Shown here: positions 2,303-41,486 of the stretch, piece by piece | Numbering within the stretch: position 1 is the first letter of the stretch | Layout of the letters: each line of letters opens with the position of its first letter | Source of the DNA: a virus | Direction: 5' to 3' (one strand) | IMG/VR virus record: IMGVR_UViG_3300017788_000060 | Coordinates: 1-42,431 of that record | Length of the DNA: 42,431 bases | The notes under the pieces: generated by a model | Told to the model about the DNA's origin: nothing | What the model saw: the letters and a program-made list of their open reading frames with translations, nothing else | The model's database searches: none | Translations under genes and position numbers: made by a program

Positions 2303-2615
2303 AATATAGATTATATAATTCTACGTTTCTTTTATAATCTTGTAAAGTCGTTGTTAACGGAAATGGTATTCTTATAACAAAATTATCAGGTATTTGAAAT
2401 TCAACACTACCAGCGGTTGGGTTTGCTTGTAAAATTAACCAACCAAATACTGGCGAACCATAATAGTCCTGTGATATTTTATCCAATCTATCCCTACCTT
2501 TTTTATAAAACATATATCTGTCCGTTGTTTTAATTGGTAACTCGATACCGGGCACGATTCTAAACTGACCATCCTCAACAAAAAACTGATATCTATCAAA
2601 ATATTGTCTACTCAT
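2289..2615 (-). CDS. gp53-like baseplate wedge protein (LysM-like)
   Basis: A 108-residue protein. It contains the pattern of short phage wedge or tail-X proteins: DRYMFYKKGRDRLDKISQDY, then YGSPVFGWLILQANP, then a segment beginning IPDNFVIRIPFPL. This matches the LysM-like fold of T4 gp53 and related proteins, where a residue run about time or scale is followed by YG.p..W.il.aN and a final strand 'G..l.IP'. T4 gp53 is longer (196 residues), so only the core is present here. It overlaps the upstream 1616-residue gene by 8 bases and the downstream gene by 14 bases, so translation is probably coupled. The expected role is joining baseplate wedges during tail assembly. The fold call is fairly firm; equivalence to gp53 is inference. 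Confidence 0.65.
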   Translation of the reverse strand: MSRQYFDRYQFFVEDGQFRIVPGIELPIKTTDRYMFYKKGRDRLDKISQDYYGSPVFGWLILQANPTAGSVEFQIPDNFVIRIPFPLTTTLQDYKRNVELYNLYYGEQ

Positions 2616-5600
2616 TATTTGTTCTATAGAAATTTAATTTATCACTAACTTTATTTGTTGTTGAAAATATATTTTCAACTTCTTCAATAATTACTTGGTT
2701 CGTTTCATCGGTAATAGATGAAATACCAAATTTGATATCTTTACCTGTTTTTCTACTTTTAAACTTGGTTAATTTAAATTTTTTCTCTTCTGGTTTTTGT
2801 ACAAATTTTTCTAATCGTCTTTTTAATTTATTTTTTAAAGAATCTTTGTATAGGTCCGGGTCTTTTAGTTCGTTTATTATAGAATCAATATCTTTTTTAT
2901 CCGAAAATAATTGTGACATTAAAAAATCAAAATCTGTAGATTGTATTGTTGGATTTAAAAATGTTATGTTTGTTGTTAAATCTTCAAACAATTTACTTGT
3001 GTTTTTGTCTATATAATCAATACAAGATTCATATTCACCATACAGCATATCAGATGTGAATCCACTAATCGCAACAGATTGAATTTTTTGATTAGTTGAG
3101 GTTCCGTCTTTACCATTTTTAATAACAAAATTTGCCTTATCTAAAGATATGATTAATTTATTTCTAGCAACATCTAATTCAGATAATAGATTTTCGGTTA
3201 ATTCATTTATTTTTTCTTCAATTTTTTTTATCAAAAATGATTTTAATATTTTTTCATTGGTATCTATCGCTAAAGAATTTGATAATTCTTTGTTGAATCC
3301 AAACATATCAACTAAGTAAGTATTTGAAGAATTGTTTATAAAACTAACTAACCCTGTTTTTAGTCCTGTGGTATATATGTTAAGTTCTTTAGTTGGTTGG
3401 TGTAATCCATATAGAGTTAATGTCTTACCGGGTGAGGGTGATGTGATGGTGTAAATGTCGTATTGATTAATTGGTCTATAATCACCTTTTAACATCATTG
3501 TTGTAATATCTCTACCGTATTTTTTATAAATTTTATTGTAGGTGTCGGTAAATTTATTAAAATATTCTTCGGTAGAATCAAATACAGATTTTATTAAATC
3601 AGAGTAATTCATGGTATTATCATCATTTTTTGTACCCATAAACAACCCGTCATTTACATTTTTTGTATTTTCTTCGTCACCATTTGGATTTATTTTATTA
3701 CCGTAAGTTTTGTTTAAATCATCTAAAAACTCACGTGTAAATTCTTCCGCCTTTTGACCACCAATTGTTTCATTTGTTGCAATTGACCTTTCATCATACA
3801 TTTCAGTGTTTGCAAAGAAATTAGAAGATAACGCGTTTTGTAATCTCTCGACAGGTTTTGAAAGACCTTGACCACCAATAAAGGTTATACTAAGTGTGAC
3901 AGACGCAATCATTGGTTGGACACCAATACCTTCCGGATTTAAATCCCATAGTATCTGACCCCCATCATCATAAGAAATGTTAACATCCCTAATAACAACT
4001 TTAGAATGGTAAAAGTCACCAATCCTAAGTATACATACCGGTGGTGGACCAAACGAAGTGTTTCTTGCTCTAACATCAGATTCTTCAGATATTCCTTTTA
4101 TGGGTATGGTATCACCAGGTCTAATACACTGAAGTAAAAAAGTTAATCTACTATTTAACCCCTCAGGTGTTGTTGAGTGAAACGCCGGATGAAAATATTT
4201 TAATTTTTCTTTTAATGAAGTAAATACAATAGGGTCAGTGTCTTCTAATTTTTTAAAATAAAAACATTCAGATAATGTTTTTGCAATGATTCTTTTTAAT
4301 GGGTCAATTGCAGGTTTTCTAGATGGTGGTGGAATTATAACTTCACCATTTTCTTCAATTCTTGTAATTGGGGTTGGGGTTGGGGTTGGTGGGGTTGGTT
4401 TTTTTGAATTCTCATTGTACTTAATTTCAACAATACTTTGTCTACAAAAAAAGGCAATTGGTGAATATATTTTTAAATCAGGTACTCTTATAAAATCTTT
4501 ATCCAAACAATTTTTATCAGGTACATTATCCTTGCCGGTAAATTTTTCACCAAAATTAACTGAATTAATTATTAATTTACTTTCTGTATTGTATCCAAAA
4601 TCTTTTAAACGATACTCTTTTTTAATAACAATAGGTTCGTCTTTTTGTATAATTACCTTATCGTTTTCTCCAGTATTTTTATTTTGTATTTCAAACTTTT
4701 CAGGCCAAATCATTGCTGGCTTGTCTTTCGGCGTTTTGGCTAATCTATCAAAAATATCTTGTAAAACGGAATGACTTCTTCTCATTGCTAACCTTTCATT
4801 GTAGTCGGTTGTTGCAACTGATGAACACGACGACGATATGTTTATGTACACATCTTCTATTGTTTTACCTGAATCTGATAGCGAATTTTTAATATCGGTG
4901 ATTCTTGTAACATATTCGTTATACGCGGCATCGGCTTCAGTAAAATAATTACCTATTTTTGTTTTTTGGTCTGTAATGTCTTGAGCTGTAATTATTTTGT
5001 TTTCATCACCAAAAATAAAAGACTTTTCTTTTTTTACTTGTATATCTGTTTGTGATAAACCTGTTAATGTTTTTAATGAGTTTTCTAAGGTATTTTCATA
5101 GTGACCTTTTCTTTCCTTAAATGCTTCGTATAATTTTGAATAATTTTCGCTTGTATTTGTTTTGTCACTTGGTTTTGGTATATCGTTTTCATATTTTAAA
5201 AACATCCTAAAAGGACCCTTTTTTTCGGAATTAGCATCGTTTCCCTGTGTCGTTGTATTTGTTGGGCTGGATTCAACAGGATACTCAGTTGTAACTTTAT
5301 ATTGTTTAATAATTTCAGGGTCTTTTCCTTTATTTAAAAACGCCTGTATGAGTTTGATATCATTTGTATCTAATTGTGCAAATCTTCTTATTAAATCATA
5401 AAAATCCAATTCTTCACATCCTGCAAAAAACGCATTAATGTAGTTTTCAGACTCTTCATCGGACATTCCTTTGAAGTATTCTCTAACTAATAAATTTAAT
5501 ATACTTGGGTGGTCAACAACAACTTTAAAGTTTAATTGTCCGGTTCTTGATGTATCTTGATACGTAAAGATTGGTTCGGGTCTACCTAAAAACTGATTGT

Positions 5601-7458
5601 CTTGCCATCTCGCTGAGTTGTTTTCACTAATTTTTAAATCATATGGTGGAAACCACATAACTCTTCCTCCGTTTGGTCCTCTCTCACAAAAAGGTAAGTC
5701 TCCATAAGTAAATCCCGGTGTATTTGAAGTTTTCCACGCTAAGTTTTCAATAGAAAACATATATTTTTTAGCATAAAACCCATCTCCTGTTGGAGATTCA
5801 AATATGTTTGTTGAGTTTTTAGCACCAAATGAATTTCTAAAACTATTTTTAGCGTCATAGTTTCCACTTGACATTGGGGCGATGTTTATATTCCAAGGTC
5901 TACTTTCACCCCCCATGATACTATCATCAAATTTTCTGATGTTAGCAGTTCTTTTCATTGTGTCAGAATAGTTCATGTAAGACCTGTCCTTTGTCCATAC
6001 CCTACAATATTCAGCACCTGTTTCTTGTTTATATTGGTCAACAAATTTTATTGCAGAACCTCGAGACAACATACTGTCTCCTTCTTTAAAAATTCTACTT
6101 GTTTGGTCGATAACGTTACCAACGTGTGTTCTTGTTGCTTGACCGTCTTTTGGCATTGAATCCAAAATTTCTTGAGTCTTGCCTAAAATTGAATCTTCTC
6201 TAAATCCGTATTTTGTTGATATTGAATTATTATAAGCATCACTTTCTCTTGATTGAAATTCTTCATTCCATAATCCAATTTTGTTTTGTGAGTTTTTACT
6301 AATCCATGTTAGTTTACCACTAATCGGTCCACCTTGGGAAATATTTCTTTGTCTTTCAAATAATGTTGCTTGTACTGGGTCAAACATTAAACTTAAGAAA
6401 TAACTACTTTTTACCATGTTGTCATTAAAATCAGACATGGTGTATTTTACATCCTCGCCTCTATCGTCCCCTATGTATGCAACACCTTTTGGTGCTTCAA
6501 GTCCTAAAAAGTTTTTTAACCCACCAGCAACATTATTTGCAAAATTGAAAAGTTTTGATGATTGTTGAGACCTAGCGGTTGTTGTGTAATTCGGTGCATA
6601 TGTCGAAAATGAAAGTTGGTCAAATAAAATTTGTTTTTGACCTTCCCCCAAGTATTCAATCATTAAGTCTGATGGTTTTCTACTTAATTTTGGTCTTCTT
6701 TGAATTCCAACTAAACTTCCTAAAACACCTGTAATGTCTTGTAATATCGCACCCGCTTCGGTTTTTGGTGTCGGTCTATTTACAATAGGGTTTCTTGGGT
6801 TGCTTAAATAATCTCCAGGTATTTCACTGAATGGGAATTCAACACCTGAAACAGTTTGTAAAAAATCTATACCCTTACCTAATAAACTACTGGCAACAGT
6901 AATTTTATAATTTTTTTCAATTAATGGTTCTCTACCGGTAATTAAATTTATCGCAGTGGCGGTGTTACCATCTAATGCATCTAAAACCCTAATTCTTCCC
7001 AAAGTTGCCATTTCTAAATTTTGTTGTAGTCTGGCTAATACGGGACCTTGTTTATTTTCTCTAATATTTTGTGTTGCGAATTTCATTAACCTCGAATCGT
7101 CATCAAAGTTTTGACCCGCCATAATGCTAACTAAATTAGTTGTTTGGGGTTCAAACGAATTAATATAACCCGCAGATAAAATACCACCATTTAGTTGTGA
7201 TAATGTTGGTAATGATGTGTTTGTGTATTCCTCAATAGTACTATTTGGTGGAATATATAGGTTAATAAAATTTTGACCAAAGTATACCGCCCAATTTGTT
7301 TTAACATCACCAGGGTCAACATTAGCAAAATTGCTTAGATTTTGAACAATGTAATTTGCGTCAGTAAACGTTTGAGGTCCATTGGGTCTGTTCAGAGTTT
7401 TTGAAATCAAAAAATCTCTAAATGTTTTTGTGGTATTAAAATCTAAATAAGTTGGCAT
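2608..7458 (-). CDS. 1616-residue multidomain baseplate/tail structural protein
   Basis: The largest gene in the window. The N-terminal part (MPTYLDFNTTKTFRDFLISK) reads like a baseplate protein. Around residues 480-500 lies RVWTKDRSYMNYSDTMKR, and near residue 640 DTSRTGQLNFKVVVDHPSIL, both in beta-rich stretches. A Pro/Thr linker ([13 protein letters not shown]) sits near residue 1024 and splits the protein in two. The second half has a beta-rich block near residues 1135-1200 (ILRIGDFYHSKVVIRDVNIS, WDLNPEGIGVQPMIASVTLS) followed by helical sequence to the end. The start at 7458 follows an ATATTTAT-type box by 6 bases. It lies directly after the tape-measure candidate and before the gp53-like gene, so a baseplate hub or wedge role is likely. 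No enzyme motif was seen. A fusion of two ancestral baseplate genes at the Pro/Thr linker is possible. Confidence 0.75.
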   Translation of the reverse strand: MPTYLDFNTTKTFRDFLISKTLNRPNGPQTFTDANYIVQNLSNFANVDPGDVKTNWAVYFGQNFINLYIPPNSTIEEYTNTSLPTLSQLNGGILSAGYINSFEPQTTNLVSIMAGQNFDDDSRLMKFATQNIRENKQGPVLARLQQNLEMATLGRIRVLDALDGNTATAINLITGREPLIEKNYKITVASSLLGKGIDFLQTVSGVEFPFSEIPGDYLSNPRNPIVNRPTPKTEAGAILQDITGVLGSLVGIQRRPKLSRKPSDLMIEYLGEGQKQILFDQLSFSTYAPNYTTTARSQQSSKLFNFANNVAGGLKNFLGLEAPKGVAYIGDDRGEDVKYTMSDFNDNMVKSSYFLSLMFDPVQATLFERQRNISQGGPISGKLTWISKNSQNKIGLWNEEFQSRESDAYNNSISTKYGFREDSILGKTQEILDSMPKDGQATRTHVGNVIDQTSRIFKEGDSMLSRGSAIKFVDQYKQETGAEYCRVWTKDRSYMNYSDTMKRTANIRKFDDSIMGGESRPWNINIAPMSSGNYDAKNSFRNSFGAKNSTNIFESPTGDGFYAKKYMFSIENLAWKTSNTPGFTYGDLPFCERGPNGGRVMWFPPYDLKISENNSARWQDNQFLGRPEPIFTYQDTSRTGQLNFKVVVDHPSILNLLVREYFKGMSDEESENYINAFFAGCEELDFYDLIRRFAQLDTNDIKLIQAFLNKGKDPEIIKQYKVTTEYPVESSPTNTTTQGNDANSEKKGPFRMFLKYENDIPKPSDKTNTSENYSKLYEAFKERKGHYENTLENSLKTLTGLSQTDIQVKKEKSFIFGDENKIITAQDITDQKTKIGNYFTEADAAYNEYVTRITDIKNSLSDSGKTIEDVYINISSSCSSVATTDYNERLAMRRSHSVLQDIFDRLAKTPKDKPAMIWPEKFEIQNKNTGENDKVIIQKDEPIVIKKEYRLKDFGYNTESKLIINSVNFGEKFTGKDNVPDKNCLDKDFIRVPDLKIYSPIAFFCRQSIVEIKYNENSKKPTPPTPTPTPITRIEENGEVIIPPPSRKPAIDPLKRIIAKTLSECFYFKKLEDTDPIVFTSLKEKLKYFHPAFHSTTPEGLNSRLTFLLQCIRPGDTIPIKGISEESDVRARNTSFGPPPVCILRIGDFYHSKVVIRDVNISYDDGGQILWDLNPEGIGVQPMIASVTLSITFIGGQGLSKPVERLQNALSSNFFANTEMYDERSIATNETIGGQKAEEFTREFLDDLNKTYGNKINPNGDEENTKNVNDGLFMGTKNDDNTMNYSDLIKSVFDSTEEYFNKFTDTYNKIYKKYGRDITTMMLKGDYRPINQYDIYTITSPSPGKTLTLYGLHQPTKELNIYTTGLKTGLVSFINNSSNTYLVDMFGFNKELSNSLAIDTNEKILKSFLIKKIEEKINELTENLLSELDVARNKLIISLDKANFVIKNGKDGTSTNQKIQSVAISGFTSDMLYGEYESCIDYIDKNTSKLFEDLTTNITFLNPTIQSTDFDFLMSQLFSDKKDIDSIINELKDPDLYKDSLKNKLKRRLEKFVQKPEEKKFKLTKFKSRKTGKDIKFGISSITDETNQVIIEEVENIFSTTNKVSDKLNFYRTNNE
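4370..4394 (+). other. G-quadruplex-prone tract inside the 1616-residue gene
   Basis: Three consecutive TTGGGG units are followed by TTGGT and another GGGG. This gives four runs of four G separated by 2, 2 and 5 bases on the plus strand. The tract encodes the Pro/Thr linker on the minus strand, so the mRNA carries the C-rich complement and any quadruplex would form in DNA only. Such a run stands out in this AT-rich sequence. Confidence 0.6.
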
Positions 7459-10985: not shown

Positions 10986-10993
10986 TATAAATA
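10986..10993 (-). promoter_or_regulatory. Late-promoter-like TATTTATA box for tail tube
   Basis: Minus-strand reading is ACATATTTATAAGAAAG, 42 bases before the tube start codon. Unlike most copies of this box it leaves room for a real 5' leader, which may help high expression of the tube protein. Confidence 0.5.
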
Positions 10994-11065: not shown

Positions 11066-11133
11066 ACTAGTACTAGATGCTAGTAAATATAAAACTAGAT
11101 TAATTAAACTAGAATTAAAATAACTAGAACTAG
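11066..11133. repeat. CTAG cluster (seven copies)
   Basis: CTAG tetramers occur seven times, six of them as ACTAG, at 11066, 11072, 11079, 11094, 11108, 11123 and 11129 (coordinates of the 5-mer). Spacings are 6, 7, 15, 14, 15 and 6. The left end contains the palindrome CTAGTACTAG. Two related ACTGG words follow at 11137 and 11148. The regular spacing suggests binding sites for a protein, but none is identified. It lies upstream of the tail tube gene. Confidence 0.6.
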
Positions 11134-11212
11134 AATACTGGTGCATATACTGGGTAATTTATAATTTTATTTCTTTTATATTTTTATTTTTTTTGTTTCA
11201 CACTATATTATA

Positions 11213-11230
11213 ATGTTCCACGTGGAACAT
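11213..11230. other. parS-like palindrome
   Basis: ATGTTCCACGTGGAACAT is a perfect 18-bp palindrome. Its 16-bp core, TGTTCCACGTGGAACA, differs from the canonical chromosomal parS (TGTTTCACGTGAAACA) by one base in each arm. The TGTTCCACGTG arm is itself a known natural parS arm variant. A half-site, TGTTTCAC, lies at 11194-11201. parS sites are loading sites for ParB in chromosome segregation. No parA or parB gene is in this window, so any partner would be host-encoded or elsewhere in the phage. Confidence 0.6.
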
Positions 11231-11254
11231 AAAATAGGGAGGGTTTCCCCTCCC
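11231..11254 (-). terminator. Intrinsic terminator after the tail sheath gene
   Basis: On the minus strand a perfect 7-bp stem, GGGAGGG with loop GAAA and CCCTCCC, is followed by TATTTTATG. On the plus strand the stem is followed by CTTTTTATT, so it can also act rightward. It starts 8 bases after the sheath stop codon. Its GC-rich stem is conspicuous against the AT-rich surroundings. Confidence 0.85.
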
Positions 11255-11261
11255 CTTTTTA

Positions 11262-16828: not shown

Positions 16829-18583
16829 ATGCAGAGTAGGATTCCTGAGATAGAGGCTAGGGAAATCTTATCCACTTATGAAGGTTTTAACAACCAATTG
16901 ATAGAGTGGAAAAGGAGGTTGGCTGACCTTAAAAATTTTCAGTTAACAAGACCCCAAGCCGAGTATGTTTTAAAATACCACGAGGTTGTACCCCGTGTTG
17001 CAAAAAAATATATAAATATTGTAGAAGGTTTTGGTGAAAAAATAATGGAATCCAAACATCTAACAAAACCACCTGAAAAAATTTGGTGTGAAAAATTATT
17101 ATGTGAAAGTGAAATGGCTTACCACATTTGGGGTAGTGTTTCTGAATCAGAAAAAAATTACTCAATGTGGGTCCCAAAATTTGCAATAATTCAAGAAGAG
17201 AAAAAATTAAATAGAGAGGTTGACTATTCACCATATGACAATAGACCACCTTTACCACATCAAAAAGTTGCAATCGAAAAATTATTAGCAAACGATAAAT
17301 TCATATTAGCTGATGATATGGGTTTAGGAAAAACAACTTCAGCGATTATTGCGTCTTTAGAAAGTGGTGTTAAAAAAATATTAATTATATGTCCCGCTTC
17401 CTTAAAGATAAATTGGCAAAGAGAAATTGAAAATTACTCAAACAAAAAAACATTAATTGTTGAGGGTCGTAAATGGGGGTCAACTTTTGATTATTATATT
17501 ATTAATTACGACATTGTAAAAAATTACCATACAATTGGGGAACCCGAAATAGGTGAAGAAAGAAACAATCAAATTTTAAATGAAAAATTTGATTTAGCAA
17601 TAGTTGATGAAGCACATTATATTTCAAATACGACCGCACAAAGAACTAAACTTATAAACGATATATTAAAAAATATACCAAAAGTTTGGTTGTTGACCGG
17701 TACACCAATGACTTCAAAACCAATTAATTATTACAATTTATTAAGAATTGTAAACTCAAATGTGACTTTAAATTGGCAAGGTTATGTTAGAAGGTATTGT
17801 GGTGGATATCAGTTTACTGTAAACAAAAAAAAGATTTGGAATACCAACGGTGCGACTAACTTAGACGAATTAAGAATAAGGACTAAAAATTTGGTTCTTA
17901 GGAGAATGAAAACCGACATATTAGATTTACCAGATAAGATAATTACACCAATATTTTTAGATTTAAAAAGCACATACTACGATGAAGAACTTGAAGATTT
18001 TTTAAGGATTACAAGTGAGTCAAAAAACAAAGAATCTTTATCAGTTACAATTAATCGTTTAATGAAAGTAAGACAAATAATTTCACAAGAAAAAATTGAT
18101 TATACTTGTGAGATTATAGATAGGTGTTTAGAACAAGGTAAAAAAGTAATTGTCTTCACCAATTTTACAATGTCTTTAGACATGTTACACGAAAAATACA
18201 AGAAAAATTCGGTTGTGTTGGATGGTAGAATGTCTAAAGAAAAAAGACAACAATCTGTGGACCGTTTTCAAAACGAAGACAAAGTTAAAGTGTTTATTTC
18301 TAATATAATTGCCGGTGGTGTTGGTATCACATTAACCGCTGCGGAATGTGTTATTATGAACGACCTTTCTTTTGTTCCCGCACACCATAGTCAAGCGGAA
18401 GATAGAGCATTTAGGTATGGACAAAAGAAAAATGTGCTTGTGTATTATCCAATATTTGAAAACACAATTGAAAGAATAGTTTATAATATGTTACAAAAGA
18501 AAAAAAATATTATAGACCAAGTTATGGGTGATGGTGATTTCTCAGAAAGTTTTGCACAATCACTTCTTAAAGAGATTCTTTAA
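16829..18583 (+). CDS. SNF2-family DNA helicase/translocase
   Basis: I chose the ATG at 16829 (MQSRIPEIEAREIL), giving 584 residues. An earlier in-frame ATG would overlap the divergent gene and add an unlikely 24-residue hydrophobic leader. Superfamily 2 motifs are all present. Motif I is DDMGLGKTTSA (about residues 160-170), Ia ICPASLKINWQ, II VDEAH (about 260) and III WLLTGTP (about 287). Motif V is AGGVGITLTAA and VI QAEDRAFRYGQ (about 522). The pattern is that of SNF2 proteins of the SMARCAL1 type: a translocase that remodels stalled forks or displaces proteins from DNA. In T4, the related-role enzyme UvsW belongs to a different family. It is convergent with, and overlaps by 24 bases, the possible nuclease gene. 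Likely used in replication, recombination or transcript clearance. Confidence 0.9.
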   Translation: MQSRIPEIEAREILSTYEGFNNQLIEWKRRLADLKNFQLTRPQAEYVLKYHEVVPRVAKKYINIVEGFGEKIMESKHLTKPPEKIWCEKLLCESEMAYHIWGSVSESEKNYSMWVPKFAIIQEEKKLNREVDYSPYDNRPPLPHQKVAIEKLLANDKFILADDMGLGKTTSAIIASLESGVKKILIICPASLKINWQREIENYSNKKTLIVEGRKWGSTFDYYIINYDIVKNYHTIGEPEIGEERNNQILNEKFDLAIVDEAHYISNTTAQRTKLINDILKNIPKVWLLTGTPMTSKPINYYNLLRIVNSNVTLNWQGYVRRYCGGYQFTVNKKKIWNTNGATNLDELRIRTKNLVLRRMKTDILDLPDKIITPIFLDLKSTYYDEELEDFLRITSESKNKESLSVTINRLMKVRQIISQEKIDYTCEIIDRCLEQGKKVIVFTNFTMSLDMLHEKYKKNSVVLDGRMSKEKRQQSVDRFQNEDKVKVFISNIIAGGVGITLTAAECVIMNDLSFVPAHHSQAEDRAFRYGQKKNVLVYYPIFENTIERIVYNMLQKKKNIIDQVMGDGDFSESFAQSLLKEIL

Positions 18584-19714
18584 AGTTGTTTCCATATAAT
18601 CAATGTCTTCTTGTTTTTTTGATATAGTTTGAATTATTTGTACCCAAACGTTGTAAATTTTATCCATATCAAAATCTTCACTGTTTGCAGGTAGATTTAC
18701 ACAAACCTTTCTTTCTTCTTTTATAAAATTTAAATCTGTATCTTCAGATACATTAAGAGAAAACTCAACATCATTTTTAGAACAATACATAAAAAACTCA
18801 AAGAAAATTTTTGAGTTCAGAATATCATCAATTTTTTCTTCCATTAGAACATTATTTTTATTGTATGTATACCAACCATTTGATTTATCTAATATAGTGT
18901 CTTCTTTAAGATAAAGGAAAACCATTTTTGTTGGGTTTACCGTGTTTAATCTAAAATCATAATTTAAAGAAACTAAAACCAAAAAATCAATATTTTTGTT
19001 TATATAATCTGATACATCTATTAAATTTTTAAAATTATCTCCTTGAAATTTAACTACTTTACTTTGAATTTTTTTTACTTTAGAATTATCATCATTGTTC
19101 ACAGTAAATAAATCACAACCACTAATCATATCTATAGACGACCCTCTTTGTAAAGAAGTTCTATAAATCTTAACGGATGTTACATTTTTTTTAAAGTAGT
19201 GTTCAATACAAAGTTCTCCATAAGTTCCCGTTCCGATTATTCTTGACGCTATGTCAAAAAGTTCGTATAAAAAATCACTTGGACCTATAATTTTGTGGTC
19301 TATTAATATTTTTTCTTTGTATACTCTAAACCATTTAAAATAATTTTTTATTTCTTCTTCAATATAGTTTGGGGAATCATCAATAAAAGTGATTTCTTTT
19401 AATGGTTGACCATTTAGATTGTTTACACCCTTAAGGAAATAATCTTGAAAAATCCATTCGTTTAATTTTTCAATTATTTTTATATTGACTGTGTAATTTG
19501 TATTGAACTGATTAACAGGAGACCAAGAACCTTTAGGTGTTAATACACCGTATGTTCCATTCCTTTCACAAAACCCATATTGTTTTTTATTCAAATAGCA
19601 TTCCTTGAAAATTTCCCTCCATTCACTCAAAAAAAGGTCTTTAATAGGTCCCTTTATTGTGCAAATCTTTTTTACGTGGTTTTCTATGTTTCTCAAATTC
19701 CCAGTGGAATACAT
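18560..19714 (-). CDS. Putative PD-(D/E)XK nuclease-like protein
   Basis: A 384-residue protein with no family I can name with certainty. Near its middle it has a pattern compatible with a restriction-type nuclease core. These are an acidic helix (GTGTYGELCIEHYFKK), an acidic strand end (SSIDMISGCDLFTVNNDD), and after a short gap a QxK strand (KKIQSKVVKF). PD-(D/E)XK enzymes use E, D and (E/Q)xK in this order. The rest is Lys/Asn/Ile-rich and aromatic, unlike the structural proteins nearby. It has an exact host-type promoter and no late box, which suggests early expression. It converges with the SNF2 gene. Candidate roles are host DNA degradation, recombination or anti-defence. The active-site reading is inference. 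Confidence 0.5.
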   Translation of the reverse strand: MYSTGNLRNIENHVKKICTIKGPIKDLFLSEWREIFKECYLNKKQYGFCERNGTYGVLTPKGSWSPVNQFNTNYTVNIKIIEKLNEWIFQDYFLKGVNNLNGQPLKEITFIDDSPNYIEEEIKNYFKWFRVYKEKILIDHKIIGPSDFLYELFDIASRIIGTGTYGELCIEHYFKKNVTSVKIYRTSLQRGSSIDMISGCDLFTVNNDDNSKVKKIQSKVVKFQGDNFKNLIDVSDYINKNIDFLVLVSLNYDFRLNTVNPTKMVFLYLKEDTILDKSNGWYTYNKNNVLMEEKIDDILNSKIFFEFFMYCSKNDVEFSLNVSEDTDLNFIKEERKVCVNLPANSEDFDMDKIYNVWVQIIQTISKKQEDIDYMETTLKNLFKK

Positions 19715-24273: not shown

Positions 24274-25632
24274 TTAAAGGCCAATCATACTATCGGTACA
24301 ATTTTCTACACATTCATTTATATTGTAATTAGGTTTAGTATCAACCAAATAGTGATGTCTAACTCTCACAAAATTCAGAGGTTCTTCATAGTATTGAACT
24401 CTTTTAAAATTAAAACAAGAAATTCCAACATTGTGTATTCCACCCGAATATTGTGTGCCACCAGCCCAAGATTGAACCATTGGTTGATAACCTCTTGTTG
24501 ATGGTATAACTTCTTCCCAACCTTTTAATTTATAGATGGTCCTACCATTTAAATAAATTTTTAAAGTACCTATTCTTCTGTTTCTCTCTAATGCCCATTT
24601 TTTATTTAAAATTTCAATATCTTCATATGTTGGAGTTGCACCTGTTAACCAATCACTGATTGAAGTTGTAAGTGTTCTACCGGTTATCAAATCATTCCAA
24701 CCACCATCATTTTCTATTCTACAATCTGTATAATACTTGTCTCTTTCAAAAGAAATCGTAATATTAAAATCATTTGATGTTCCACTTGTACATAAAACTG
24801 GTGTTTGACCTGATGAAGTATAAAAAGTTTCAGTATATCCACTATTGGTTGCACAAACTCCCGAATATCTAATTGCTCTCCATTGTATTCTTCCATCACT
24901 TGTAAATGAGAAAGATAAATTGTTATCCGCATAATCTCTTAAATCGTTTTCACCTCTAACGCCTAAATAATAAATGGTTCTACCACTTGTCCAATCTGAA
25001 CCGTCTCTATTAAGTACCAAGTCAATAGTCCAACCCTTTTCCGTCCTTCTATCTACTTTATACGAACAGTTATCACCACCCGCACCGTGATTAATTTGGT
25101 AAGCCCATGGTTTTGCTTCGGGTATTGAATCTTGGGGACAACAATTATCTGTATCGGCTAATTTAGAAATACACGCATATGATGCTCCTGTTATTCCTGT
25201 TGTGAAACCTGAAGTACTGAGTGAAAATGGGTTTGATATTGAATTATTGTATCCATTGTTCCTCAAGTAGTGAGTATTACCATTGAGTTCGTAAGAATAT
25301 ACATCGTTTTGTAAAATAATATCTGAATTTCCTAAAGTTGCGGTAAATGCTGAATAATAAAGAGTCCAAGTAAGGGCTGAGTATGTGTAACCACTGTCAT
25401 TTACGGTATTGTTATATTCAATTAAAGATATGGTATCTCTCGTACAATCTGTTCCAGTTAAACCAGTTGTATTAATAGTCAAACCGGTATATACGATTGT
25501 GTTATCTAAATCTAACACCAAACTATCGTAATCCAATTCAGTTTTAGAAATTTCGTAATCGTAATATTCCGAAGAATCGAGTTGTAAATCTAATCTACTA
25601 CCCCAAAATTTAAGTATGTTTTGACTATTCAT
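24274..25632 (-). CDS. Tail fibre/appendage protein with LamG-like lectin fold
   Basis: A 452-residue Thr/Ser/Gly/Asn-rich protein typical of phage surface appendages. The region about 200-420 reads like a concanavalin-A/LamG jelly roll: KGWTIDLVLNRDGSDW, TIYYLGVRGENDLRDYADN, LSFSFTSDGRIQWRAIRYSG and RIGTLKIYLNGRTIYKLKGW. The last is the usual 'l.iYlNG..v' strand. Cysteines occur in pairs (NCCPQ, SCFNFK, ECVENCTD), which is unusual for a cytoplasmically made tail protein. The N-terminal part likely attaches to the virion. It probably binds carbohydrate on the host surface. The start at 25632 follows an ATATTTAT box and is divergent from the rightward block. Confidence 0.6.
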   Translation of the reverse strand: MNSQNILKFWGSRLDLQLDSSEYYDYEISKTELDYDSLVLDLDNTIVYTGLTINTTGLTGTDCTRDTISLIEYNNTVNDSGYTYSALTWTLYYSAFTATLGNSDIILQNDVYSYELNGNTHYLRNNGYNNSISNPFSLSTSGFTTGITGASYACISKLADTDNCCPQDSIPEAKPWAYQINHGAGGDNCSYKVDRRTEKGWTIDLVLNRDGSDWTSGRTIYYLGVRGENDLRDYADNNLSFSFTSDGRIQWRAIRYSGVCATNSGYTETFYTSSGQTPVLCTSGTSNDFNITISFERDKYYTDCRIENDGGWNDLITGRTLTTSISDWLTGATPTYEDIEILNKKWALERNRRIGTLKIYLNGRTIYKLKGWEEVIPSTRGYQPMVQSWAGGTQYSGGIHNVGISCFNFKRVQYYEEPLNFVRVRHHYLVDTKPNYNINECVENCTDSMIGL

Positions 25633-40112: not shown

Positions 40113-41486
40113 ATGTCGTACTATCGTTCATATTTTTCTAAAAACAATACTATTATTGAAAATAGTCGAGTTAACACCGCTAAAAATCCAACAACCGAGA
40201 TTTATTACGGAGATGGATATTCTCGATTTATATTCAAAGTTGATTTTACAGATTTACAATCGAAGGTTAACAACGGTGATTTAGTTATTACCACAGGAAC
40301 GACTCATTACTTAAAAATGACCAACACGGTCATTGGTGACCCTAAATTAATAGGTGACAGTAAATCCAACGGAAAAGACCGAGCAACGTCATTCGATTTG
40401 ATATTATTCTCAATACCTCAATCATGGGACGAAGGTGTTGGGTATGACTATGAATTTACCACTTATGATGATAGTTCAGGTAATAAAATATATGACACCC
40501 GAGCATCTAACTGGTATGATAGAACCACAACATCAGGATGGACATATCCAGGTGTGTATACGGGAGCAACTGTCCTAAGTACAATTCATTTTAACAATGG
40601 TAATGAAGACATTAATGTTAATATTACAAATTACGTAAATGGTATTATAGTTTCGGGAAATACTGACCACGGATTAGGATTAGCATTCACCTCAGCATAC
40701 GAATCTATCACAACCGGTGAAACCCAACAATCCGTTGCGTTCTTTTCAAAATATACACAAACATTTTTTGAACCATTTGTTGAGTCAGTATTTGATGATA
40801 GAATAGATGATAACAGACATGATTTTATTGAGGAAAGATATAATAACCTATATCTGTATGTAACAAAAGGTACAAATTTTTACGACTTAGACAGTAACCC
40901 AACGGTCGATATTTTAAATTCAAGTAGTACCTCTATATCGGGTCTTACAGGTCTAACAACAACAAAAATAAAAAAAGGAATATACAAAGTTAGATTTGGT
41001 ATAACAGGACAATTATGTGATGGTAAAAGGTTCTTCTATGACAAATGGAAAAACTTATCTTTAGATGGAATATCTATAAGTGATGTTACACAAAAATTTG
41101 TACCTAAACCATACACCGCGGGTTACACCATTGGTACCAACCCAACAGAAACACAAAATTATAAAATACAATTTTCGGGTATAAAACAAAATGAAAAAAT
41201 TATAAGAGGTGAGCTTAAGAAAATTGTTCTATACTTTAAATCAATTGAGCAATCAAAAACTATATTGTTTGATAAAGTTTATTACAGAATATTCATAAAA
41301 GAGGGTAGGACAAATGTGATTGTTTACGATTGGACACAAGTAGATGTTACAAATGAAAATTCATTCTTTTTGGACACATCGTATTTGATACCTAGAGAAT
41401 ATTTTATGGAATTTAAAGCTAAAACATATACCGAGGAGATATTTTACAACGACTACGTAAAGTTTGAAATATTATCTGAAATTTAA
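40113..41486 (+). CDS. Large beta-rich tail/baseplate structural protein
   Basis: A 457-residue protein, Thr/Asn/Gly/Tyr-rich, with alternating strands (SRFIFKVDFTDLQSKVNNGD, TTHYLKMTNTVIGDPKLIGD, DINVNITNYVNGIIVSGNTD). A middle segment reads DDNRHDFIEERYNNLYLYVT, and the C-terminal half has IYKVRFGITGQLCDGKRFFY and YRIFIKEGRTNVIVYDW. No enzyme motif, signal peptide or coiled coil. It resembles phage virion proteins of the tail or baseplate in composition, but I do not recognise a named family. It is placed after the OB-fold spike protein and before the small Cys/Lys-rich proteins. Confidence 0.65.
   Translation: MSYYRSYFSKNNTIIENSRVNTAKNPTTEIYYGDGYSRFIFKVDFTDLQSKVNNGDLVITTGTTHYLKMTNTVIGDPKLIGDSKSNGKDRATSFDLILFSIPQSWDEGVGYDYEFTTYDDSSGNKIYDTRASNWYDRTTTSGWTYPGVYTGATVLSTIHFNNGNEDINVNITNYVNGIIVSGNTDHGLGLAFTSAYESITTGETQQSVAFFSKYTQTFFEPFVESVFDDRIDDNRHDFIEERYNNLYLYVTKGTNFYDLDSNPTVDILNSSSTSISGLTGLTTTKIKKGIYKVRFGITGQLCDGKRFFYDKWKNLSLDGISISDVTQKFVPKPYTAGYTIGTNPTETQNYKIQFSGIKQNEKIIRGELKKIVLYFKSIEQSKTILFDKVYYRIFIKEGRTNVIVYDWTQVDVTNENSFFLDTSYLIPREYFMEFKAKTYTEEIFYNDYVKFEILSEI

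Follow-up and report, generated by a model that had tools for sequence, protein, structure and literature searches.

Phage P1 and the extrachromosomal mycobacterial prophages have a partition site on the phage genome and encode their own ParA and ParB. Extrachromosomal mycobacterial prophages with partition systems are described in PMC7157519, and the general mechanism, by which ParB is loaded onto DNA in the form of a CTP clamp and then spreads, is reported in PMC12704722. A different arrangement is found in SGI1, whose parS mimics are reported to bind the ParB of an IncC plasmid, to stabilise SGI1 and to destabilise the helper plasmid (PMC10954446). Imperfect sites can also be read, as ParB of Pseudomonas aeruginosa is reported to bind parS-like sites with two substitutions as well as half-parS heptamers (PMC10419367). 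For Bacteroidota, parS was detected in a study of mouse-gut bacteria that included two Bacteroidetes, by means of TGTTTCACGTGAAACA with two mismatches (PMC10197239).

The locus analysed here lies in a 42,431-base virus record, referred to in full as the window. Matches of its genes to baseplate wedge, hub, tube, sheath and DNA polymerase indicate that the virus is a contractile-tail phage, and “T4-like” is our reading of the same matches. Between its sheath and tube genes is a palindrome of the host-chromosomal parS type, although a ParB domain was not detected in related records of this phage family, and we propose that it is a putative loading site for host ParB, with a probability of roughly 0.7. 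As in SGI1, a mobile element would carry a partition site read by the ParB of another replicon; however, SGI1 is an integrative mobilizable element with a plasmid as its target, and binding, stabilisation and displacement were shown there (PMC10954446), whereas for the phage site they are predictions. The chromosomal ParABS of Bacteroidota shares with it an identical 16-mer and the same freedom at the pyrimidine/purine and end bases, but here the site is phage-borne, has one canonical copy, and comes with no ParB domain in related records. P1 and the mycobacterial prophages resemble it in having the site on the phage genome and differ in having their own ParA/ParB. The half-parS and parS-like sites of P. 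aeruginosa are scattered on a chromosome of another phylum; binding there tolerates two substitutions or the loss of all but one intact heptamer, and most of the relatives' sites are of such a form (PMC10419367).

The palindrome and its surroundings

The features of the 318-base gap and its flanking genes are listed in Table 1. The original prediction had located a perfect 18-bp palindrome in the gap separating two tail genes, and both statements agree with our analysis. It had also described the core as differing from canonical parS by one base in each arm, which is incorrect, as TGTTCCACGTGGAACA is itself a parS form that many bacteria have; a half-site was predicted 13 bases to the left, and it does exist, but at a spacing of 12 bases from the 16-mer. 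This 16-mer, TGTTCCACGTGGAACA, is at 11214-11229 and occurs only once in the window. When the window was shuffled by dinucleotides, a parS match with up to three mismatches was seen in 12 of 100 shuffles, whereas the real match is exact.

Table 1. Coordinates of the sheath–tube gap features and flanking genes in the window
Feature	Position	Strand	Remarks
Tail tube protein gene, 162 aa	10455-10943	-	phrog_4542 tail tube, E 9.1e-26
Late-promoter-like TATTTATA	10986-10993	-	before the tube gene; invariant in the 16 rows of alignment A1
Seven CTAG repeats	11067-11154	-	bordered by CCCAGTAT / CCAGTAT, also given as CCCAGTAT / ATACTGGG
Half-parS TGTTTCAC	11194-11201	+	12 bases between half-site and 16-mer
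18-bp perfect palindrome ATGTTCCACGTGGAACAT	11213-11230	no strand	16-mer inside is of the host parS type
Intrinsic terminator of sheath gene	11236-11255	-	terminator-like on the + strand too (11237-11254)
Tail sheath protein gene, 951 aa	11262-14117	-	phrog_23 tail sheath, E 3.8e-60

Read in gene direction, the gap leads from the sheath terminator through the palindrome and the complement of the half-site into an AT-rich stretch, followed by the block of seven CTAG repeats, the late-promoter-like motif and the ATG of the tube gene. Over the whole window, there were no Rfam matches at gathering scores, and no tRNA genes were found. The half-site varies more than the palindrome does, being present, as read by eye, in five of the nine distinct gaps of the window's clade; among relatives, it is found in L136, L130 and L132 and absent from L122 and L137.

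The CTAG element is possibly an origin, a packaging element or a regulatory element. Its counterpart in a 232,626-base relative (G001) has 9 CTAG in about 94 bp, the only run in that genome of at least three CTAG spaced by less than 150 bp, and the GC skew of the same genome does not indicate a clear origin at the parS site. In one relative (L145) the element forms a long inverted repeat with a folding z of -7.53, the value for the window being -1.42. The TATTTATA motif possibly serves this phage family as its late promoter: it is located 11-50 nt ahead of 8 of the 32 window genes (2608-7458, 24274-25632 and 40113-41486, for example), and in G001 it occurs 15 times in sense and 11 times in antisense, with no strand specificity.

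Identity with chromosomal parS and the probable host

The 16-bp palindrome falls within TGTTYCACGTGRAACA and is, as TGTTCCACGTGGAACA, the exact chromosomal parS of Bacteroidota, where it is located near mnmG. GTDB genomes contain TGTTCCACGTGGAACA in at least 116 stretches from many phyla; carriers among the matches listed include Flavobacterium soli, Aequorivita, Algoriphagus and Chitinophaga solisilvae, the last with five sites inside 8 kb. Twelve Bacteroidota genomes preselected for having the 16-mer contained 1-5 sites each and no control matches. In an even draw of 198 Bacteroidia genomes, taken from the class of F. soli (G018) and including this known carrier, TGTTYCACGTGRAACA was present in 121 and its reversed control in none. 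A closer view is given by 30 mnmG loci of about 3.5-4.9 kb each, the best-scoring matches from a set of 60 genomes in which 57 gave a match: a site matching at 15 or more of 16 positions is carried by 26 of the 30, one (L416) reaches 14/16, and three (L401, L412 and L415) have none at 13/16 or better. The core of the phage site is that of the parS of the likely host group, whereas a different host core would have told against the original prediction.

The host is very likely a member of Bacteroidota, given the TTTG/TANNTTTG promoters of G001 and the nearest isolates, which include phages of Flavobacterium, Rhodothermus and Salinibacter. In 110 upstream regions of G001, the promoter TTTG-N17-20-TANNTTTG was found 25 times in sense and twice in antisense, against a mean expectation of 0.26 over 50 mononucleotide shuffles; a -33/-7 promoter consensus of Bacteroidota is described in PMC6847099. 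Among the 32 window genes examined, a promoter of this type precedes one (18560-19714), in place of TATTTATA, and it does so twice. Of the seven isolate records for the hub, four are Flavobacterium phage immuto; for the tube, the top of the isolate list comprises Microcystis phage Mel-JY01, an uncultured phage, immuto and Rhodothermus phage RM378. Among 17 isolate matches of the polymerase, ten are Salinibacter phages, and the other seven, phages of the cyanobacteria Nostoc, Anabaena and Dolichospermum, count against a Bacteroidota host, as does the top single match of the sheath, which is Mel-JY01. The helicase matched 1585 records from many hosts and gave no host signal. Immuto and Mel-JY01, the two nearest isolates searched whole, both lack TGTTYCACGTGRAACM, which counts against the proposed role of the site.

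Conservation and variation among relatives

Relatives were gathered by two sheath-protein searches of 80 loci each, partly overlapping, to which the window, L014 and L066 were added, and the resulting sample contains 119 full sheath–tube gaps, 88 of them distinct. A site matching at 13 or more of 16 positions is present somewhere in the gap in 71 of the 88; both arms are intact in 17 gaps, at least one arm is degenerate in 54, and no site is seen in 17. Close relatives do carry the site, the canonical form being found in all nine distinct members of the window's clade; its absence from them would have refuted the original prediction. In an alignment of 16 rows chosen from gaps that have a site (A1), ATGTT.C....G.AAC is invariant, which covers ten positions of the 18-bp palindrome, at a mean column identity of 50%. 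On a tree of the sheath protein, the absent state accounts for eight changes, which indicates repeated losses or gains. With 54 of 88 gaps holding a degenerate site and 17 of 88 none, the site is not indispensable, and this counts against its use by host ParB.

The 17 gaps that lack a site could also be taken to mean that the palindrome is a neutral remnant or arose by chance. We find this barely credible, as the site is kept in 71 of 88 gaps and, in the first batch of gaps, which is the batch the shuffle control covers, each gap with a site at 13/16 or better was equalled in at most 1 of 200 shuffles; the reading is already contradicted by these figures.

The position of the site is also informative. 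When sites up to 320 nt from the start of the tube gene are counted, 68 of the 88 gaps have one, at a distance of 218-300 nt, and the remaining three of the 71 are at 322 nt (L163 and L164) and at 1797 nt (L342, which has extra sequence between site and tube). Six gaps are 786-2241 bases long (L014, L201, L355, L364, L366 and L369), yet their sites are 227-287 nt from the tube gene. A distance to the tube that stays constant across long insertions shows that the site is not part of the sheath terminator. This has a bearing on the proposal that the palindrome acts as an RNA hairpin, either as a second terminator or as an mRNA stabiliser at the 3' terminus of the sheath transcript. The palindrome is only 5 bases from the terminator stem, the window copy alone folds well (z -3.89), and T-runs follow the palindrome in some relatives; nevertheless, where long insertions occur, the site parts from the sheath terminator and remains close to the tube gene, and CAC or GTG is retained by most variants in what would be the loop. 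Across 33 phage variants, C/A stands at opposite arm positions eight times and T/G seven times. As C/A pairs would break the hairpin in the sheath-sense RNA and T/G pairs in that of the opposite strand, the hairpin is preserved on neither strand. On these counts, with pairing not kept across relatives, we rejected a hairpin by the terminator, a condition under which the original prediction would have failed, and regard it as very improbable.

A comparison of phage and host sites shows where change is tolerated, within the limit that both sets were selected by likeness to the consensus. When half-sites are folded onto each other, changes in phage and host alike fall mostly at positions 1, 5 and 8; positions 3 and 7 are altered in 6 and 8 of 66 phage half-sites and in 1 and 2 of 56 host half-sites, and this higher frequency in phages counts against the proposed reading. 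Host sites near mnmG include TGTTCCACATGGAACA, TGTTCCATGTGGAACA and TGTTCTACGTGGAACA, the same cores occurring with other end bases in phages, and the host cores CACATG, CATGTG and TCTACGTGG are likewise found in phages. At least one intact GTTYCAC heptamer is retained by 30 of the 33 phage variants, and two are retained by 6. Because P. aeruginosa ParB binds sites with two substitutions and half-parS (PMC10419367), the degenerate sites of the relatives may still be bound by ParB, perhaps more weakly, although this extends a result across phyla.

Alternatively, the palindrome could be the operator of a phage-encoded regulator other than ParB, which shares the parS half-site by chance and has the late promoter of the tube gene or the CTAG element as its target. 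An operator would fit the nearly constant location of the site, which in 68 gaps is 218-300 nt upstream of the tube gene, and also the adjoining CTAG element, present as a single cluster in G001, and the degeneracy of the central bases in most distant relatives. We consider it unlikely, since the site is identical to host parS and varies at largely the same positions as the host sites, since nine records have one canonical copy each and thus no regulon, and since the 17 of 88 gaps that miss the site include several that retain the CTAG element.

Host ParB and the same site in other viruses

A self-encoded ParABS, with parB in cis, was not found in the searched records. The ParB_N domain (PF02195) was absent from 17 related records, which are possibly incomplete, and was recovered in 10 of 14 positive control genomes, while the ParB HTH domain (PF17762) was absent from 20 records, 12 of them relatives. 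The ParB_N search covers the first batch of 17 records, and the window's own phage may encode a ParB elsewhere in its genome. ParB_N was also absent from immuto and Mel-JY01. A ParB encoded by the phage was therefore dropped as the reader of the site, and, as far as the records are complete, these phages carry the parS of another replicon without its ParB.

Copy number is low. In the 17 records of the first batch (57-245 kb), the loose form GTTYCNNNNGRAAC was seen 0-3 times, similar to the 0-2 of its reversed control; ten further records (41-336 kb) have it 1-5 times (control 0-2), mostly with other centres. The canonical GTTCCACGTGGAAC is present in one copy in each of nine records, always at the sheath–tube gap, and the sheaths of these records are 90-95% identical to that of the window. 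About one site per phage genome is fewer than many chromosomes have, which counts against reading by host ParB.

On balance, loading of host ParB is well supported as a prediction by the exact Bacteroidota match, the promoter set of the relative, the conservation of the site, the absence of a ParB domain from 17 records and the host-like changes. Of the original proposal of a parS that loads host ParB, the identity as parS is strongly supported by sequence, and the loading stands as a prediction drawn from it. Host ParB, a CTP-dependent clamp, would most likely bind the site and load onto phage DNA, from where it could slide along the gap on either side and into the tail genes, and bound ParB could couple phage genomes to host ParA. 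Replication of the phage would create many copies of the site, outnumbering the one to few chromosomal parS, and ParB would be drawn off the chromosome. The likely net effect would be that of SGI1 on its helper plasmid, in which the parasite gains the benefit of partition or positioning and the original owner loses it. If ParB does bind, we would assign about half of the probability to a benefit for phage genomes in their positioning or inheritance, a carrier state included, about a quarter to titration of ParB, and the rest to late genes being controlled locally or to some other function.

Local control could also be the main purpose of loading, with ParB silencing or blocking transcription of the tail genes, a reading that overlaps with, and is contained in, that of a host-ParB loading site. 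The site is upstream of a late gene, and ParB at parS3 and parS4 is reported to repress adjacent promoters in P. aeruginosa (PMC5521831); as promoter-near ParB can repress, control of the tube gene has to be kept among the rivals. However, shutting off late genes that are strongly needed would cost the phage unless it were timed, and we give silencing as the main function a low probability.

The same 16-mer is found in other viruses. In IMG/VR viral contigs it occurs in at least 120 stretches, compared with 2 and 9 for two control palindromes of the same base composition, the first with a stop in one frame and the second chosen without stops. A translated search sorted the 120 16-mer loci listed into 79 sets, the largest with 31 members. 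By one ORF call, 71 of 127 viral 16-mers are intergenic and 56 are in ORFs; by a looser call, the numbers are 59 and 68, and those inside ORFs often translate as VPRGT. Since many viral 16-mers are in ORFs, the raw enrichment overstates the number of functional sites. With regard to host contamination as a source, ParB_N is absent from all 46 carriers that reach about 30 kb in length among the 120 listed, though a chromosomal parB need not adjoin parS.

Queries with parS also led to named phages, nine records of which were opened; ParB_N was found in one of the nine, Stenotrophomonas phage BUCTxx99. Pseudomonas phage KPP25, a phage of P. aeruginosa, has a perfect TGTTCCACGTGGAACA (L439, 1501-1516) by a terminator-like hairpin and next to structural genes, and ParB_N was not found in it. 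Phage Lana has TGTTCCACGTGGAACA between convergent genes, again with no ParB_N detected, phage XD2 has two sites inside 4 kb, and Xenohaliotis phage pCXc has three inside 6 kb. We tentatively suggest, at rather less than even confidence, that many phages, with hosts of many kinds, follow a strategy of carrying a parS of the host type but no ParB, which would capture host ParB to position genomes or strip the chromosome. Candidates, named on the same tentative footing, would be T4-like Bacteroidota phages, some Pseudomonas phages (KPP25), gokushoviruses and others, and the strategy could then be seen as a viral form of partition incompatibility.

Some further arrangements were observed. The parS query also matched a number of Microviridae records, and a gokushovirus, a 5-kb ssDNA phage (KT264816, L435), has two adjoining parS-type palindromes at about 2893-2924 in a 741-bp gap between VP2 and VP4. 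A 29-kb viral contig (L105) has five intergenic perfect 16-mers in 6.2 kb, at 4324, 6308, 8135, 9161 and 10442. Four linked viral contigs (L049, L071, L108 and L109) have TGTTCCACGTGGAACA and TGTTTCACGTGAAACA paired 8 bases apart, in a flank that may be phage or host.

Among the matches listed in the open-access full-text literature on parS, as far as these texts go, none dealt with the use of host parS by phages. For a mobilizable element, a parS mimic lacking the cognate ParB is known; what appears to be new here is its presence in phages, where the partition system of the chromosome itself would be the target. KPP25 and other cultured phages that carry this site make reading by host ParB directly testable. 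If host ParB does load, large phages would parasitise chromosome segregation by means of a 16-bp site alone. This would reveal a little-tested side of the conflict between phage and host, which would extend to the positioning of phage genomes, the carrier states of Bacteroidota phages and the depletion of ParB at the host origin.
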